DNA of 64,000 bases from Glutinoglossum americanum (Eukaryota; Ascomycota; Geoglossomycetes; Geoglossales; Geoglossaceae), in NCBI GenBank assembly GCA_020080175.1, contig JAGHQL010000018.1, positions 1 through 64,000 on the forward strand, read 5' to 3'. The position numbers were made by a program, and so were the translations under genes. Below, one piece after another: positions 2,841 to 37,974 of the stretch (position 1 is the first letter of the stretch; each line of letters begins with the position of its first letter). The notes under the pieces were generated by a model. It was not told where the DNA came from. It saw only the letters and a list, made by a program, of their open reading frames with translations, and ran no database searches.

Positions 2841-3423
2841 GAAATCTTCCACTATGGCAGATCGGCGACCCCCAGGTCCAGTACTCGTCTTGATGCAACA
2901 TACAAAAATCGAGTTTGAATATGTAGTGGCTAGAAAGACTGCGATACTATCCCGCGTAGCCTTCAAATCCTTTTGGGCCTGGAAGTTGGATTGGGCTTGT
3001 CAATCCTACTCACCAGAAGTGTTTGACTTTCAGCGTACTCTTCCTATCTGGAACGGAAGAAAAGTTTGCGAATATGAGAAAGCAAATGCGAAGCAACTGT
3101 GTAGCTAATTGGCTACACTCCAATAAGTCAACTAGGTGACTTGGGAGACATGAGAGCACCATAAGTATAATATCTGAAGCAATTGTGGTAAACCAGAAAC
3201 CACAATAAGGATGCCAATGGAATACTCAAAGTCATGAACATTTGAGCGACGATATTAGAGGGGTAAATTTTAGTTATTGAACCCAAAGCAGTGATGCCCT
3301 AGAGGAAATGGGATTCGCGAAGCAGGAATGAAAGCGGTAAAGGTGGTATAGATAGGGGACAACGGCTAATAACAAGAACGACGACAGCTACGGGCATCTT
3401 CTAGGATAACTCCGTCAATGAAC

Positions 3424-4887
3424 TCAAATAGTACCGACTGCCTGCGCCGAGGCGATCATGTCTAGAACAGGATTGCTCATACTATCCGCTATAATCTTCT
3501 TCTCGAGTTTCAGCTGCTTCTCCTCCGAAAGCTGCCCAACTGGGTTAGGGTCCAATCTCGAGTTCAAGTCCTTGGCTGCGAATAACTGATTGAGAGAACT
3601 AGGATTGTACATTTCCGGCTGGCCAAGTTGAGCCTTGCCGATGAAGGTCCGCAGACCGCCCACAGTAGCAGGATATTGTAGAAGGTTGGCAACTGATGTT
3701 GGAGCTGTCAAAGAGGCCTGGACAAAAGATGTTGCGAGTTCGACCCACATAAACACGTCAGTAACAGAAGTGCTTACTGCGCCACGACGGAACTCGATCG
3801 TCTGGTACGTTTTTATGGACAAGAAATTCCAGCCGAAGTATTTTGATTGATTCGGGTTCATGAGGTCGATTAGCTCGTCAACCGTGGTAAGATTTTCGAT
3901 CCGGTTAAGAGATTGTGCTCGGGACAAATTTTGATACGCCAATGCAGGGTTGTCAATCCAGTTGCTTCTCGCATATTCGTTGCCTCGGCGTGATGCGGGT
4001 AAAAGGGCCTCGAAAGCAGGTTCAAAATAGATGACTGCTTGAGCAACTCTCTTCAAATCCTCAAGGGAATAACCCTCTGCTTGTGAGATGTGGACGTGAG
4101 TGCTACAGTTGTTATTACCGGTCACCATGTAATTTTCGTTGAGGAAGCGCCAGGTAGCTCTAATATGCTGTCGCCATTCTGAGCCGGGGTAAATACGAAA
4201 TAAGGGTGATATCAGTTCAATCCCCCCTGAGAGGTTGTCAGATTATAGTTAGTTCCACAGGATAATAGACTCACAAGGAGCTGATCGAGTTTCGCAAGTC
4301 GGGTCATAGTGTAAACACCACTGTGTGTGAGGCTGGCCTTGCCATAGGGCTTGAACTAAGCTATGCATTCGAGGATGTTGTTGGTCAACTTGTTCGTTAT
4401 ATTGAATGGCACAACGCCTCGCAAAGCGGAACAACGAAACGTCCTCCGAGTTGGGTTCACGACTCTGGAGCAGAAACTCGGTTTCTATACCGATGCCGAT
4501 GCCGATCTTGGGCGGTGTCGGCTGTTTTTGGATTGTAGGTCTGTTCGAGATACCTCGAGGTTTGTATGGAGGGAGAGGTGGCGGCGGGGGCGGTGGTTGT
4601 GGTAGTGGTGAGATTGGGGAGAAGGAGGAGTCTTGTTGGGGGGGTTCGCGATCTATCTCTGGGTATTTGGCGATGATATACCAAGCGTGTAGCAAGCCGG
4701 GGAGATAGCCAAGGCAGCAGAGAGCCATGTTGATGAGGGAGTCTGTAGAGCAGACACCGCGCTCTACCCAGACTATCGCGCGTGTCAGTGACATGGGCGC
4801 CGGAACTGAAAGAACACTTTGGAACTTACTGGCAAGAGGTGGGAACAGGATGGCGATAACGAACAAAAAGACGTTGGGGCAGCGCAT
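3424..4887 (-). CDS. Pmp3 membrane anchor fused to fungal amidoligase
   Basis: Three exons (4887-4830, 4772-4275, 4226-3424) give 452 aa. Splice sites are GTAAGT and GTGAGT donors with TAG and CAG acceptors, and phases agree. Residues 1-56 are a Pmp3/RCI-type proteolipid: ILFPPLAIWVERGVC, then two hydrophobic segments ending HAWYIIAKYPE. A proline-rich linker follows (about 57-110, with a PPPPPPP run). From about 112 comes an amidoligase (Amidoligase_2) domain: GIETEF (114-119), then WGIELISPLF after the second intron, then CSTHVHIS (226-233), RRGNEYARSNW and TIEFRRG. Amidoligases are ATP-dependent COOH-NH2 ligases related to glutamine synthetase and gamma-glutamylcysteine ligase; the substrate is unknown here. 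No Met occurs between residue 35 and the amidoligase core, so the fusion is not easily split into two genes. The neighbour, 242 bp upstream and divergent, is an AIG2-like cyclotransferase. Pmp3 proteins sit in the plasma or endosomal membrane, so the enzyme is probably membrane-tethered. Confidence 0.83.
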
Positions 4888-5019
4888 TATGGTTTTTCCG
4901 GCCGAATTGGATAGGGAGACACTTGTAAACGAGAAGTGTAAAGAAGCACGCTGATCCTTCGGTCGAATTGGATAGACAACTTTAAGTTTTGATGATGATG
5001 TTGGAGTTTTGCTTAACCG

Positions 5020-5027
5020 CACGTGAC
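5020..5027. promoter_or_regulatory. CACGTGAC E-box in the divergent promoter
   Basis: A CACGTGAC motif, the core bound by fungal bHLH factors of the Cbf1/Pho4 kind, lies in the 242-bp gap between the amidoligase and AIG2-like start codons. A second ACGTG half-site follows about 10 bp later. The placement suggests shared control, but binding is inferred from the motif alone. Confidence 0.35.
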
Positions 5028-5129
5028 ATTACGTGTTAGCTACATGTACATAATTAGGACATCTCTGCCGACGGTACAAAGACTGCTCAAGTCAAGTCAT
5101 CCAAAATACTACTACTACTTCCTCCTACA

Positions 5130-5795
5130 ATGTCTTCTCCCAGTAAGACAATAGATACACTGTACGTCACTACGGTGCCGCCCTCAGACCCTCTTCAATC
5201 GCCTCCTCCCCCGCCTCCTCTCCCGCCTCCTCTCCCGACTCCTCCCCCGCCTATGCGTCACCGTCCGTCACATTTCCTAGCACAGCTGCAGTCCGCTCCA
5301 AAAGACTACCTTTCAACTATCCCCAAAATCCAGCGTCAGGCCCCAGTCTACGAACCCGTCTATTACTTCTTCTACGGCACCCTGACACAGCCGGAAACCC
5401 TAAAAAGAATTCTTGACCTCAAAGAAGAGCCTGTACTTCGACAAGCGCAGATTGTTGGGTATTCTCTTGCCAAATGGGGCGATTATCTTACTCTCCTCGA
5501 CGGCCCTCCTGGCAATGTCGTCTCTGGGCACGCGTACATGGTGCGGTCGAGCGATGACGAGTGGAAGCTTGCCTACTATGAAACCCTTGCATACAAGCCG
5601 GCCCCTTGCCGAATCACTTTCACCGGTGATGCCCAGCCAGCACGAGTATCCGGGAGAACATTCATGTATGCCGGAGATGCAGCGGCTCTGAGGGAGAAGA
5701 GGTTTGATCATACGTTGTGGATGCGGCAGATGAGCCACAGGCCGACATCCAACTCTGTCGAGGAGATAAAATCGACTTGGCCGTGTGATCTGTGA
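5130..5795 (+). CDS. AIG2/gamma-glutamylcyclotransferase-like protein
   Basis: A single exon of 221 aa. An N-terminal disordered segment has a proline run (about residues 25-41). The GGCT-like (AIG2, PF06094 type) fold starts at about 78 with FFYGTL (80-85), the substrate-binding YGTL loop. It continues with LDGPPGNVVSGHAY and AYYETLAYKPAPCRI, where Glu151 is at the position of the catalytic acid, and ends near FDHTLWMRQM. Family members cleave gamma-glutamyl amides and release 5-oxoproline, though many fungal AIG2 proteins have no proven substrate. The gene is divergent from the Pmp3-amidoligase gene, and both carry proline runs. A short open frame continues past the stop to 5967, so an alternative 3' exon is possible; the fold is complete without it. 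Confidence 0.85.
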   Translation: MSSPSKTIDTLYVTTVPPSDPLQSPPPPPPLPPPLPTPPPPMRHRPSHFLAQLQSAPKDYLSTIPKIQRQAPVYEPVYYFFYGTLTQPETLKRILDLKEEPVLRQAQIVGYSLAKWGDYLTLLDGPPGNVVSGHAYMVRSSDDEWKLAYYETLAYKPAPCRITFTGDAQPARVSGRTFMYAGDAAALREKRFDHTLWMRQMSHRPTSNSVEEIKSTWPCDL

Positions 5796-33640: not shown

Positions 33641-36386
33641 GATACAGAAAACGCTCTTGTGTTCTGGCATAGAGGCCACACGAACTGAGTGGCCGATCCT
33701 TGCAACTGTCCATATACTCCGAGTATTTTACTCCGGACGACGCACCCTCCATTCGCTTATCGCCCATTTTCTTTGTTTTCTTTTTGTCTGCACCCAATCA
33801 GGAACCCCAAAACTTCCCTAGGGTCACGGAAACTCTGTAAGACTGAAACAACCGGATGACTAACATCAGTAGAGTTGTCCTCTTGAAATCCGCTCGTTTG
33901 CTTTTCCAAGCCTCATCTGTGAAAGCTGAAGCCACCATTTTTTGGCCATTGAGGTATCCGCTCAGGAGTCAAAAGTGGCCATCCAACCCCCCCATCGAAC
34001 TAAAATAGATGACCAAGATCCCCATCCTTAGTCGATAGCCAGTCTAGACGCGGCCTGTTCTCCTGCGAACCGTGGGCGCGCGCGCACGCACGCACCAACC
34101 GGTTCTATCAAACAAGCTTTAAACCTCCCGCGGGACAGGAAAACGCCAGATCTCCTCCATCTTTCGGTCCAGTTTGCAACGGTTAGGATCCGTGCAAGGA
34201 TACAGGACCGGCACCGAACGGGCAGTACATAAAATACACCTCGTGTGTGCATGTAGCAGGACAATAACCGATCACTTCGCATCCACACTACTTTCAGCAA
34301 AACGTAGGCGAGAAGTTCAACCAGATGGCGACCGGGTGCGAGGAATTCCGGCCGAACTCCATGTGCTGGACCCAGATCCGTATACTCGAGTTTGCAGCCA
34401 GGGGGTTCCTTTTGTTGAGGCTCCAGGTTTCCAGTTTCCAGTCCTCTCTCCACGTTGTTTTCCGTTGGGAAGTCCAGCCGCCGTATCGTCCTCCGCCGTC
34501 CATCCAGTGGCTGGCTGGACATGCGCCGATCGGGTAATTCCCACCAGAATCCTCCGTGACCCGGTTTGCAGCCCACGCGGCGACGCCAAAAATACATTTA
34601 AACTTCCCCCCCCGTGCATCGCCCGGTGATGCGTGACTGGAACTCCGCGTCCTCTGCGGCGGGAAAAGTATAACCGTGCCATATCCGTGCCATGTCCCAG
34701 CGTCGAGATAGGCGCATCAGCGCAGCGTCCAGCCCGCGGGTGACCATGCGGGCAAGGCATCGCGCACACATGACACTGCGAACCTGCGGAGGTAGCCGAA
34801 CTACACGCCATTTAAACTTCACCCGCGCATCGCAAGACCCAGAGCACGGATCTCGCTGCGCACGTACGCGGCGTGGAATCAACAGCAAGTACCTACATGA
34901 TATGCAGCGCGCTGCTCTACACGGAGTGCATGATGTCAAGTGTCGTCGATCTCATTGCTTTTTCCTTCCCATCCTCTCATCCTCCCATCCTCCCATCCTC
35001 CCTTCTTCCCATCCCCCAACTTTCCCTATCCCCTCGCATATCCCACCGGCCCAGTCCAGACCCTCCGCCCTAGACCGCAGCCAGCATGCCGAGGGCATAA
35101 CCCCCCAAGATAAACTTTGGCTTGGGCAATCCCCTCCCTTTCCCCCCCCTCTCCCCCCCCTCACCCCGCCCCCCCCCCGGCCGTTACCCCCCGCTTCTNN
35201 NNNNNNNNCCCCCTCAAACCCCGGGCCCCCGCTTGGAAGTCGTCCCTCTAACGGCTTGTGAGGTGGACGCCTGTAAAAAAAAAAAAAAACCGCGGGGGAT
35301 GTGCCTCGCGAAAGGACGCCCTGGAGGAGCGCAGCAACAAACCAAACACCCAATTCTCTTTTTTTTTTTTTTCTTTCTAGGGAAACGAGACCAGGTCACA
35401 GCTAGTACGGGTTAAATGCCTGTCAAATTCTGTGGTTTCCGCGGCGGTGTGTTCGTGCGGTCCCACTTGTATTGTTTATGGCAGAGTATGGCTGATGGCC
35501 CACTGAAAAAAAAACAGTGCCCTTTTGTCGTAAGAACCTGGATCTGGGGAAGAAAAGTAGCTCACTCTCTTTTATCGTCTCGATGAGTGTACTACCCCCT
35601 ACGGTTGCCTTGCTACCTCCACAGCGGCTGTTCTCATTCTCTGAATCTTCGACTGGCTTTTCTTTGTGACTGTGCTCTCGCCAAAGGCCCTGGGAATCCC
35701 AGAGCCCGGGGCATGTCGCTCGCGTTTAATGGATTCTCTACTTGAATTCATCTGTTGAACTTGTTGTTGTGCCTAGTAGCAAAGAGTGGAAAGGGTCGGC
35801 TAACTCTCCATTTGTCGCTTAGGGAATCTAAACACCATTAATCTATCTTGGAAGGAATAGCTAACCCGCCTGGAACTGTGATATAAACAACTGCGTTATG
35901 CTCAGGGGCGGGATTAGAGAAAGACATGGTAAACATGCTAGGGGAGTGCCCCTCGTATGGAATTCACACGCTTACTAGCACTGGTGAACGTTTCCCTTTT
36001 CTTTATTTGTAATTCCTTTTTCTTTTAGAGTGAGGAGATTATATACCTAATACTAAGTGGTACAGGGCGAGAGTGGGGATGGGCTAACGCTAGTTCCTCA
36101 GGAGTATGGAAAAAAAAAAAGACGGTATATATACGGTCAAGGTTTGTAAAATGGGGTGACTGTGAGATAGGTGTCAAAAGGGGGTTGAGAGGTGGGTTGG
36201 CTATGGACAGAGCAGCGAGCAACATCGTATTTATGTAAGCTTTCTTGGAAAAAGCCTCTTTTCCACCTAAAATCGCCGATATCGAGAAGAGCGGGGAGGT
36301 GACAATGAGAATAGGGAAGAAAGGTTCAAGAGGGCATTTCAGGGCATTCTCAAATCCTAGACCAGAATCAAATCAATAACTAAACA
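33641..36386. other. Long intergenic region with assembly gap
   Basis: About 2.7 kb. The segment 34020-34940 is GC-rich with overlapping frames on both strands but no family similarity. Two short stretches starting ATTTAAACTTC (near 34598 and 34810) are similar over about 25 nt. C-rich low-complexity DNA surrounds the gap. Segment 35400-36380 shows no coding signal. Confidence 0.5.
35199..35208. other. Assembly gap (10 N)
   Basis: Ten Ns inside a poly-C/CCT tract, probably a placeholder for unknown length. Frames crossing it are meaningless. Confidence 0.98.
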
Positions 36387-37974
36387 TTAAACCTTTTCCC
36401 ACTCTGCACTTTGTGCAGTAACGCCAGAACCATTCCACCCATCCTCTCCCAGCATTGCATCGTCCCCTACCCCATTGACCCTCCGGATCCCCAACATCCA
36501 TCCGACGATTCCAGCGGGTGCCCATCGCCCTACAATATCATACACCAAGCTTCCGCTACCGACTCTCCATACGCGCTGGGGCTTCTTCACCGTTAGCGCG
36601 TCAAACACTGCATTGTGTAGTTCGCGTAGGGGGCTCCCCCGCGGCGCTCCCTCACCGCCGCCACTAAGGAGGCAACTGCGGCTCCCCGCACGCTGAGCTT
36701 GCGCGACGAAGTTCCGCGCATACGCCGCACGAGCAGTGGCTGACCAGGCGAGCACGTCCGCGCGCGTCGCGTTGCTTGGAGACTGCTGGAGATGGTGCCG
36801 CCCGCCAACAGCGCCGCAGTCGAAGGCTCCAAGCTTGAAATGCGCAACCGGGATGCCCATAGTGGCGAGTTCGCTGGCAAGGCAAGATGTGAATGCCGAG
36901 AGGGCGGCGACGATGGTAGACTCCGGGGCGTGAAATGGCGGAGAGAGCGCTGGAATGGCAGCCGGGGTGAGCATGAGGACACGTGCCTTGAACTCGCATA
37001 TTGTACGGAGAAAGGCTTGTGTTGTGGCAATGGTGCTGAGAATTCGGACGTTTAGTAGATCGGACCAAACGGCTGGTGAGGTAGTCTCAATAGGGCCCGA
37101 GGGGTAGGTGATGTCGGGAATGACGATCACGCCAGCGAGGTTGAGGTTGTGTGGAGGTGCGCCGGGAAAGGCGTGTTGCGGGCTTAGGAGGATTCGACTG
37201 AAGTGTTCGATGGCACTTGTGGGCTATATATCAAAAAGGAAGAAAAGGAGTGTGCGAATCAGCCCAGGTTCTTTATATTAGAGGGGCTGCATGGGGATTA
37301 CATCTGTAACGTCGACATTTAAGGGTCGAATGTCGACGCGTGACTCGTTATGTACGATCTGTTCCTCTTCGACGGTACCGACGACCACGTAGACAATGAA
37401 GCCCCGTCGCTCAAGGTCTAGGGAAAGTGTTCGAGTAATTGGATCGTTTGGAGACCCCGAGATTACTGTTGATTTGCTATTTAACTCGAAATGACCAGAA
37501 GACTTGTCGAGCATTCCAACGTACCAACAACTTCCCTTCTAGCTCCATTGCTAGCCCGTCGCGCCCTCCTCTTCCTACCATACGTCTTTCGGCGCCTGTA
37601 TATTAGGTAGCCCGTAGCCCCCAAAGATATTAGCGCAATTGCAGTTAGGCTTTTGTTCCTCAGCGCCCAATCCTGCACGCGTTCGTAGTACCCAAGGGGT
37701 GGTGAAGGTGGGGCGGGGACGCGAGGAGGTGGTAGTGGGCGAGCGGATTCTGGAAGCCAATCCGAGGATGAAAGAACTTCCCTGATCATAACAGCGACGG
37801 ATTCGAAGTGCCGGTCGATTGAATCGGCCAGTTGGAGGGAGGTTCTTTTCACATCGGTGGGGATTGTGGAGAGCTTTTCGGAAAGTGTAAGTTATAATGG
37901 TATTCTCTTAGCTATGGGCGAAGAGAATACCCGCAGCTTACCAGGTCTAGGAAATGCTGATCATCACTTGTCAT
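36387..37974 (-). CDS. DUF1776 family SDR-like membrane protein
   Basis: Four exons (37974-37942, 37873-37525, 37465-37302, 37223-36387) give 460 aa. It starts MTSDDQHFLDLLSTIPTDVK, then DSIDRHFESVAVMIREVLSS. A single hydrophobic span (LTAIALISLGATGYLIY) follows, and a basic RRRKTYGRKRRARR stretch. The Rossmann-like half opens VVVISGSPNDPITRTLSLDL with FIVYVVVGTVEEEQ and RPLNVDVTD, then HNLNLAGVIVIPD. This architecture, a membrane span plus degenerate short-chain dehydrogenase, is that of the fungal DUF1776 family. Its biochemical role is not established. The usual SDR glycine motif is replaced by SGSPNDP, and no YxxxK is seen, so catalysis is doubtful. Confidence 0.88.

Follow-up and report, generated by a model that had tools for sequence, protein, structure and literature searches.

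A Predicted Pmp3–Amidoligase Fusion Gene beside a Divergent, Putative γ-Glutamyl Cyclotransferase Gene in Glutinoglossum americanum

Introduction

Which reaction would an amidoligase carry out, and where in the cell, if it were made as one polypeptide with a Pmp3-type membrane proteolipid? This question is raised by positions 3424 to 4887 of a 64,000-nucleotide stretch of the Glutinoglossum americanum contig JAGHQL010000018.1 (positions 1 to 64,000, forward strand), hereafter called the window. An initial annotation, made from the DNA letters, had proposed a single gene joining the two domains and a product that works at a membrane, perhaps on a membrane or wall peptide.

Amidoligase_2 proteins were reportedly paired with AIG2/GGCT cyclotransferases in fungi by Iyer et al. 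in 2009, and the Pfam text for PF12224 likewise describes an AIG2-type pairing in fungi. Published reports mention a putative amidoligase of Epichloe, og_5118, that is missing from 4 of 12 asexual strains (PMC8982410) and an enrichment of the amidoligase domain in Sclerotinia and Botrytis (PMC3158057). Among the matches listed of the literature searched, no passage gives a fungal Amidoligase_2 protein a function established by experiment. Members of the Pmp3 family in C. elegans are described without a known molecular function in one study (PMC12136403).

Results

Gene structure and splicing

On the minus strand, a single gene running from 4887 to 3424 comprises three exons and two consensus introns and is predicted to encode a protein of 452 amino acids; its coding coordinates are exact.

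4830..4887, minus strand: exon 1, with the ATG at 4887 and the opening part of Pmp3
4773..4829, minus strand: intron 1, 57 nt, GTAAGT...CTGAC...TAG
4275..4772, minus strand: exon 2, with the remainder of Pmp3, the proline-rich linker, and the N-terminal part of the amidoligase, all within a single open frame
4227..4274, minus strand: intron 2, 48 nt, GTGAGT...CTAAC/CTGAC...CAG
3424..4226, minus strand: exon 3, with the remainder of the amidoligase and a C-terminal tail, stop TGA
4672..4872, minus strand: Pmp3 domain (PF01679), residues 6–53, split by intron 1
4507..4656, minus strand: proline-rich linker, residues 59–108, 38% Pro, containing PPLP and LPPY (LPxY)
3724..4491, minus strand: Amidoligase_2 domain (PF12224), residues 114–353, split by intron 2

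We scanned the minus strand of 3300–5000 for introns of 44–90 nt with a GTRAGT donor, CTRAC, and a CAG/TAG acceptor. Just these two donors fit the consensus, no third being present in that interval, and two such donors occurred in none of 500 first-order Markov sequences (mean 0.03), which bears out the two canonical introns initially proposed. The donor at 4829 also pairs with a second acceptor 9 nt further on to give an in-frame intron of 66 nt; this version was rejected for its poorer Pmp3 score (60 bits versus 68.9 bits with the 57-nt intron; retention of intron 1 gives 56 bits). The length of intron 1 is a multiple of three and the intron is free of stops, so its retention keeps the frame, and, given the additional in-frame acceptor, splice variants at this site would stay in frame and alter the Pmp3 part alone. 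Retention of intron 2 leads to a stop, and the resulting product of 193 residues would break off within the first part of the ligase, beyond Pmp3 and the linker.

Met codons fall at residues 1, 35, 155, 219, and beyond, with Met35 inside Pmp3. The predicted protein has no further Met from residue 35 up to residue 155, and its conserved amidoligase core begins at 114, in line with the earlier remark that no Met separates residue 35 from a core then placed at about 112. A separate amidoligase would therefore need a start that is not visible here, and it would be hard to make, since only two introns fit the consensus used. Codon log-odds support the given frame in four of the five parts of the gene, the exception being the proline-rich linker (−0.11 in frame versus −0.25 and −0.10 in the other frames), and synonymous codon choice by itself shows no clear signal in any of the five. 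The GC content is 0.503 for the coding sequence and 0.506 for the window.

Pmp3 and Amidoligase_2 are the only families above the Pfam cut-off in the 452-residue protein. The Pmp3 match spans profile positions 2–48 of 49 (E = 3.8e-19, 68.9 bits against a cut-off of 22.9), and the Amidoligase_2 match spans positions 6–244 of 245 (E = 2.1e-13, 51.1 bits against a cut-off of 22). A PHROGs search matched amidoligase families, the best at 1.8e-8; for the Pmp3 part it gave a single weak hit, to a membrane family, at 3e-4. An NCBIfam search gave no match, and among PDB sequences no relative of use turned up for Pmp3, for the amidoligase, or for the neighboring GGACT protein described below. With both Pfam profiles covered nearly in full within one frame, the proposal of one gene that holds a complete Pmp3, a proline-rich linker, and a full amidoligase domain stands, and at the level of sequence the fusion is confirmed as a gene model.

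Elsewhere in the window, positions 36387–37223 encode a DUF1776 protein (E = 1.6e-57), which Pfam lists as a fungal family of unknown function and which is in keeping with fungal DNA. The single run of N in the window (35199–35208, 10 bases) lies within a proline-rich open frame far from the fusion gene. A bacterial-code scan of the window found no tRNA gene.

The membrane anchor and linker

On the Kyte–Doolittle scale (19-residue windows, cut-off 1.6), the two hydrophobic segments attributed to the Pmp3 part fare differently: segment 1 is clearly hydrophobic at 2.12, and segment 2, at 1.55, falls slightly under the cut-off. Yeast Pmp3 gives 2.07 and 2.06. The value of 1.55 fits either a monotopic hairpin or two spans, and one study allows for the hairpin in Pmp3-type proteins (PMC12136403). 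Placement of the ligase at a membrane, as initially suggested, is plausible; the fusion protein would probably owe both its membrane location and its topology to the Pmp3 domain.

The LPPY of the linker is related to the PY motif. In Sna3, a yeast relative of Pmp3, the C-terminal part is reported to be cytoplasmic and to carry a PY motif that binds Rsp5 (PMC2171029).

The amidoligase domain

All of the main motifs of the family are present: GxExE (residues 114–118), ExxSP (E189), HxH (H229/H231), R (R265), and EFR (E330/R332). We scored the exon-3 range in a large alignment of 81 of 99 dereplicated prokaryotic and viral relatives. Seven columns in this range are invariant in the 81 relatives, a conservation that is partly by construction because the loci were in part fetched with EFR and HVH patterns, and the fungal protein has six of them (E189, H229, H231, R265, E330, and R332). 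The one it misses is G227S, at which 81 of 81 relatives carry Gly. The GxExE motif encoded by exon 2 is conserved too (G114, E116, and E118). Among the 33 exon-3-range columns conserved to at least 85%, 21 are kept and 12 are changed, including G227S, R314K, K317G, Q333R, H334G, G336V, and K342D; with this many well-conserved columns altered, the substrate or activity may differ.

A small alignment drew on five of 35 phage/plasmid records found by tblastn, two of them from one isolate. These five relatives are identical at 55 columns, and the fungal protein agrees with them at 25: G114, E116, E118, H156, W171, D176, E189, L190, S192, P193, L214, C226, H229, V230, H231, E254, P262, R265, Y270, Y315, N319, E330, F331, R332, and W346. 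By comparison, the other four relatives have 123 invariant columns without the Bacillus phage protein, which matches 55 of them.

Because the spliced 452-residue protein is not contiguous in the DNA, we folded exon 3 and a relative, L057, instead; a further alignment placed 68 relatives together with the fungal exon 3 alongside L057. The AlphaFold2 model of exon 3 alone has a mean pLDDT of 80, and its best Foldseek match in the PDB is YbdK at a weak E of 0.14, none falling below 0.001. The model of L057, which covers the whole domain, has a mean pLDDT of 92. Its top PDB match is again YbdK (Foldseek E = 9.5e-6, probability 1.00), but at a TM-score of 0.42 and an rmsd of 9.9 Å; the best three matches have TM-scores of 0.42–0.44, rmsd values of 8–10 Å, and 12–15% identity. 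Other matches of L057 are a Salmonella "predicted glutathione synthase", Dop, glutamate–cysteine ligase, glutamine synthetase, and γ-glutamylmethylamide synthetase, and PafA is also among its nearest folds. These are mostly ATP-dependent enzymes that work on glutamate carboxyls, and Dop and PafA act on protein- or Pup-bound Glu/Gln side chains. The predicted fungal ligase would likewise use ATP, with glutamate as the probable donor.

The divergent cyclotransferase gene

Upstream of the fusion gene, and divergent from it, lies an adjacent gene for an AIG2-type protein.

5130..5795, plus strand: partner gene, 221 aa, with a proline-rich N-terminus and an AIG2-type γ-glutamyl cyclotransferase
4888..5129, no strand: intergenic region of 242 bp separating the two divergent start codons, a putative shared promoter
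4899..4914, minus strand: 16-nt repeat, copy 1, CCAAT-bearing, CTATCCAATTCGRCCG on the minus strand
4960..4975, minus strand: 16-nt repeat, copy 2, CCAAT-bearing, a direct repeat of copy 1

The GGACT domain (PF06094) occupies residues 79–195, corresponding to 5364–5714 (E = 3.8e-9, 37.6 bits against a cut-off of 22.8, profile positions 1–116 of 120). A Glu at the presumed catalytic position is invariant in nine aligned proteins, and we take it to be the catalytic Glu. The fungal protein shares just 17–23% identity with eight aligned prokaryotic partners, and a profile model made from phage partners does not detect it; the putative GGACT assignment rests on the Pfam match and the conserved Glu.

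The two 16-nt repeats between the genes lie 12 and 73 bp upstream of the ATG of the amidoligase fusion. Allowing up to two mismatches, exactly two copies occur in the whole window, where shuffled sequences would be expected to hold 0.06. The proline tracts of the two proteins (4507–4656 and 5130–5354) have PPPPPPLPP and PPLP in common. The shared PPPPPPLPP may be mere chance in low-complexity proline tracts; we take the shared tracts to be possible ligands of one common WW or SH3 protein.

Partner genes of related amidoligases

We assembled 136 related loci (1.29 Mb), of which 80 are viral (the best 80 of 248 confirmed), 51 come from genomes, and 5 from phages or plasmids, near-duplicates included. 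A GGCT-like ORF is found at 61 of the 136 loci: 58 of the 80 viral loci, 2 of the 51 from genomes, and 1 of the 5 from phages or plasmids. All 64 such ORFs share the strand of the amidoligase. The 61 loci do not amount to 61 events, since near-duplicates are present and the viral loci are the best 80 out of 248. When five of the partner proteins were run against Pfam, four scored above the PF06094 cut-off and one slightly under it; eight records, all picked for having a match, also matched PF06094. Published descriptions include neighboring amidoligase and cyclotransferase genes in Tn6164 (orf22–23; PMC3485107), the same pair in Arthrobacter phages (genes 97–98; PMC5513430), neighbors of the two types in C. 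clostridioforme prophages (PMC11318856), and amidoligase and cyclotransferase genes six ORFs apart in phage UFV-P2 (PMC3890496).

Distant Bacteroidota cousins carry another neighbor, with a C26-like ORF adjoining the amidoligase in five of six loci; the three checked with Pfam are Peptidase_C26. This family includes γ-glutamyl hydrolases such as PuuD. The C26-type gene is a putative second partner type for the Amidoligase_2 family, and the association of two unrelated partner families with γ-glutamyl bonds suggests a γ-glutamyl amide product. The Bacteroidota branch scores 198–227 bits against PF12224 in 26 of 28 amidoligase-bearing genomes. Examples in which the C26-type gene comes directly after the amidoligase of this branch are L137 (3731–5525), L138 (4180–6025), and L139 (3977–5852).

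Occurrence of the fusion

A phmmer search with the Pmp3 of the window found no Pmp3-like ORF at E ≤ 1 in the 136 loci (1.29 Mb; viral part the best 80 of 248). Four of 137 stop-to-stop amidoligase ORFs (viral part again the best 80 of 248) pass the hydropathy cut-off. In L077 and L089 the hydrophobic segment is inside the ligase region, and in L038 it precedes the likely start; by our reading, L068, with a Met before the segment, is the sole case of the four in which an N-terminal anchor is possible. Going by the places listed for 296 Bacteroidota genomes, 135 of them have Pmp3, 28 an amidoligase, and 18 both. In 14 of these 18 the two lie on separate contigs, and in the other 4 a distance of 240 kb or more divides them. 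Pmp3 open frames in the 296 genomes reach 224 aa at most. Pmp3 and amidoligase as bacterial neighbors were rejected, none of the 18 co-bearing genomes having them within 240 kb.

As single queries, exons 3 and 2 had no confirmed relative in viral contigs, a non-fungal collection; exon 3 had none in genome contigs and exon 2 none in plasmids, collections that are likewise non-fungal and silent on fungi. The fusion may be private to Glutinoglossum americanum or widespread in fungi. Among the matches listed of the literature searched, amidoligase and Pmp3-family names occur together in no paper; the initial annotation likewise knew of no described protein with both domains.

Discussion

The DNA itself shows how the gene is built, its two domains, its main motifs, and the partner gene. 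We lean slightly toward the interpretation that this one gene encodes a membrane-tethered amide-bond ligase and that the γ-glutamyl group of its product is removed by the divergent neighbor, so that ligase and cyclotransferase would function jointly. In such a scheme, the N-terminal Pmp3 hairpin would anchor the protein in the plasma membrane or the endosome/vacuole with both ends cytosolic, and the proline-rich linker would space, and may also dock, a C-terminal amidoligase of glutamine synthetase fold. The cytosolic position would give the ligase access to ATP, which it would spend in joining a carboxyl, most likely the γ-carboxyl of glutamate, to an amine near the membrane, whether on a small molecule, on a lipid head group, or on a protein. 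The AIG2-type cyclotransferase would then free the γ-glutamyl group as pyroglutamate. The pair could thus be the writer and remover of a γ-glutamyl amide, or could supply protection and deprotection steps in one pathway.

The membrane or wall peptide first proposed as substrate finds less favor, since the divergent AIG2-type gene at 5130–5795 indicates a γ-glutamyl amide product instead. Wall peptides would also not be directly reachable by a ligase that presumably sits on a cytosolic tail. A bolder proposal, possible yet doubtful, is a reversible, membrane-bound γ-glutamyl conjugation in a eukaryote, in which the Pmp3-anchored ligase would add glutamate to a lipid, polyamine, or membrane-protein amine at the cytosolic face and a divergently co-expressed cyclotransferase would take it off again, in a manner that could be switched, for example, by ionic or membrane stress.

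Other explanations of the locus have to be weighed against the tethered ligase–cyclotransferase pair. The fusion could be genuine and its ligase directed at a peptide or protein carboxyl, such as that of a membrane- or wall-related protein, the cyclotransferase being an unrelated neighbor. The presence of Dop and PafA among the nearest folds of L057 and the change of 12 of the 33 positions conserved in prokaryotic relatives would suit such a target, but the GGCT-like ORF at 61 of 136 loci (viral part the best 80 of 248) and the C26-type ORF at five of six others make it rather unlikely. The same 12 changes, G227S among them (Gly in 81 of 81), could also mean that the ligase domain is inactive or decaying, with the gene kept for its Pmp3 part or already a pseudogene. 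This is hardly likely for a gene model free of stops and frameshifts with a full-length domain and six of seven invariant residues retained, every charged one included; the altered positions, moreover, may be typical of the fungal branch.

It is distinctly unlikely that the locus yields separate products, namely a short protein of Pmp3 type ending in a proline tail and an amidoligase from another start, the fusion being minor or absent. Early termination or intron 2 retention could give rise to the former, as in the 193-residue form that breaks off early in the ligase; Pmp3 proteins are as a rule short (in the 135 Pmp3-bearing genomes among 296 of Bacteroidota, the longest open frame is 224 aa), and codon usage fails to single out the linker frame. 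Against this stand the lack of a Met from 35 to 155 when the conserved core begins at 114, a stop-free linker frame with no third consensus donor in 3300–5000, and a neighboring gene that starts 242 bp upstream, which would leave the ligase no obvious space for a promoter of its own. That the junction is an assembly chimera seems far-fetched: the gene is known from a single genome, yet exon 2 reads in frame from the last part of Pmp3 through the linker into the amidoligase, far from any N, and the coding GC of 0.503 is close to the 0.506 of the window.

The tethered pair can be compared with known systems. Pairs of Amidoligase_2 and AIG2/GGCT proteins have, as here, a ligase with the same main motifs and an adjacent γ-glutamyl cyclotransferase; in the 136 related loci (viral part the best 80 of 248) no Pmp3-like ORF was found and the two genes share one strand, whereas here the ligase carries an N-terminal Pmp3 and the genes are divergent. 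YbdK/GCS2-type ligases and γ-glutamylmethylamide synthetase are among the nearest folds of L057, and no PDB sequence match is convincing. In PuuA/PuuD and BtrJ/BtrG, which belong to soluble bacterial pathways, one enzyme adds a γ-glutamyl group and the other removes it; by analogy, the fungal pair would work in the same way, by addition and then removal. The Pmp3/RCI2/Sna family, notably yeast Sna3, offers a Pmp3 domain followed by a proline-bearing tail, as here, but Sna3 is described as a small protein (PMC2171029), whereas the tail at this locus runs on into a 340-residue enzyme. The Pmp3 anchor is the unusual element of an otherwise known ligase–cyclotransferase pair, and the locus encodes a predicted membrane-anchored form of that enzyme pair, a new architecture and not a new kind of system.

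Conclusions

The fusion to an anchor tells where the reaction should occur, and the adjacent cyclotransferase tells which bond should be made; together, they make it possible to assay the enzyme. Should the fusion recur in other fungi, the Pmp3 family would be tied to a specific chemistry.
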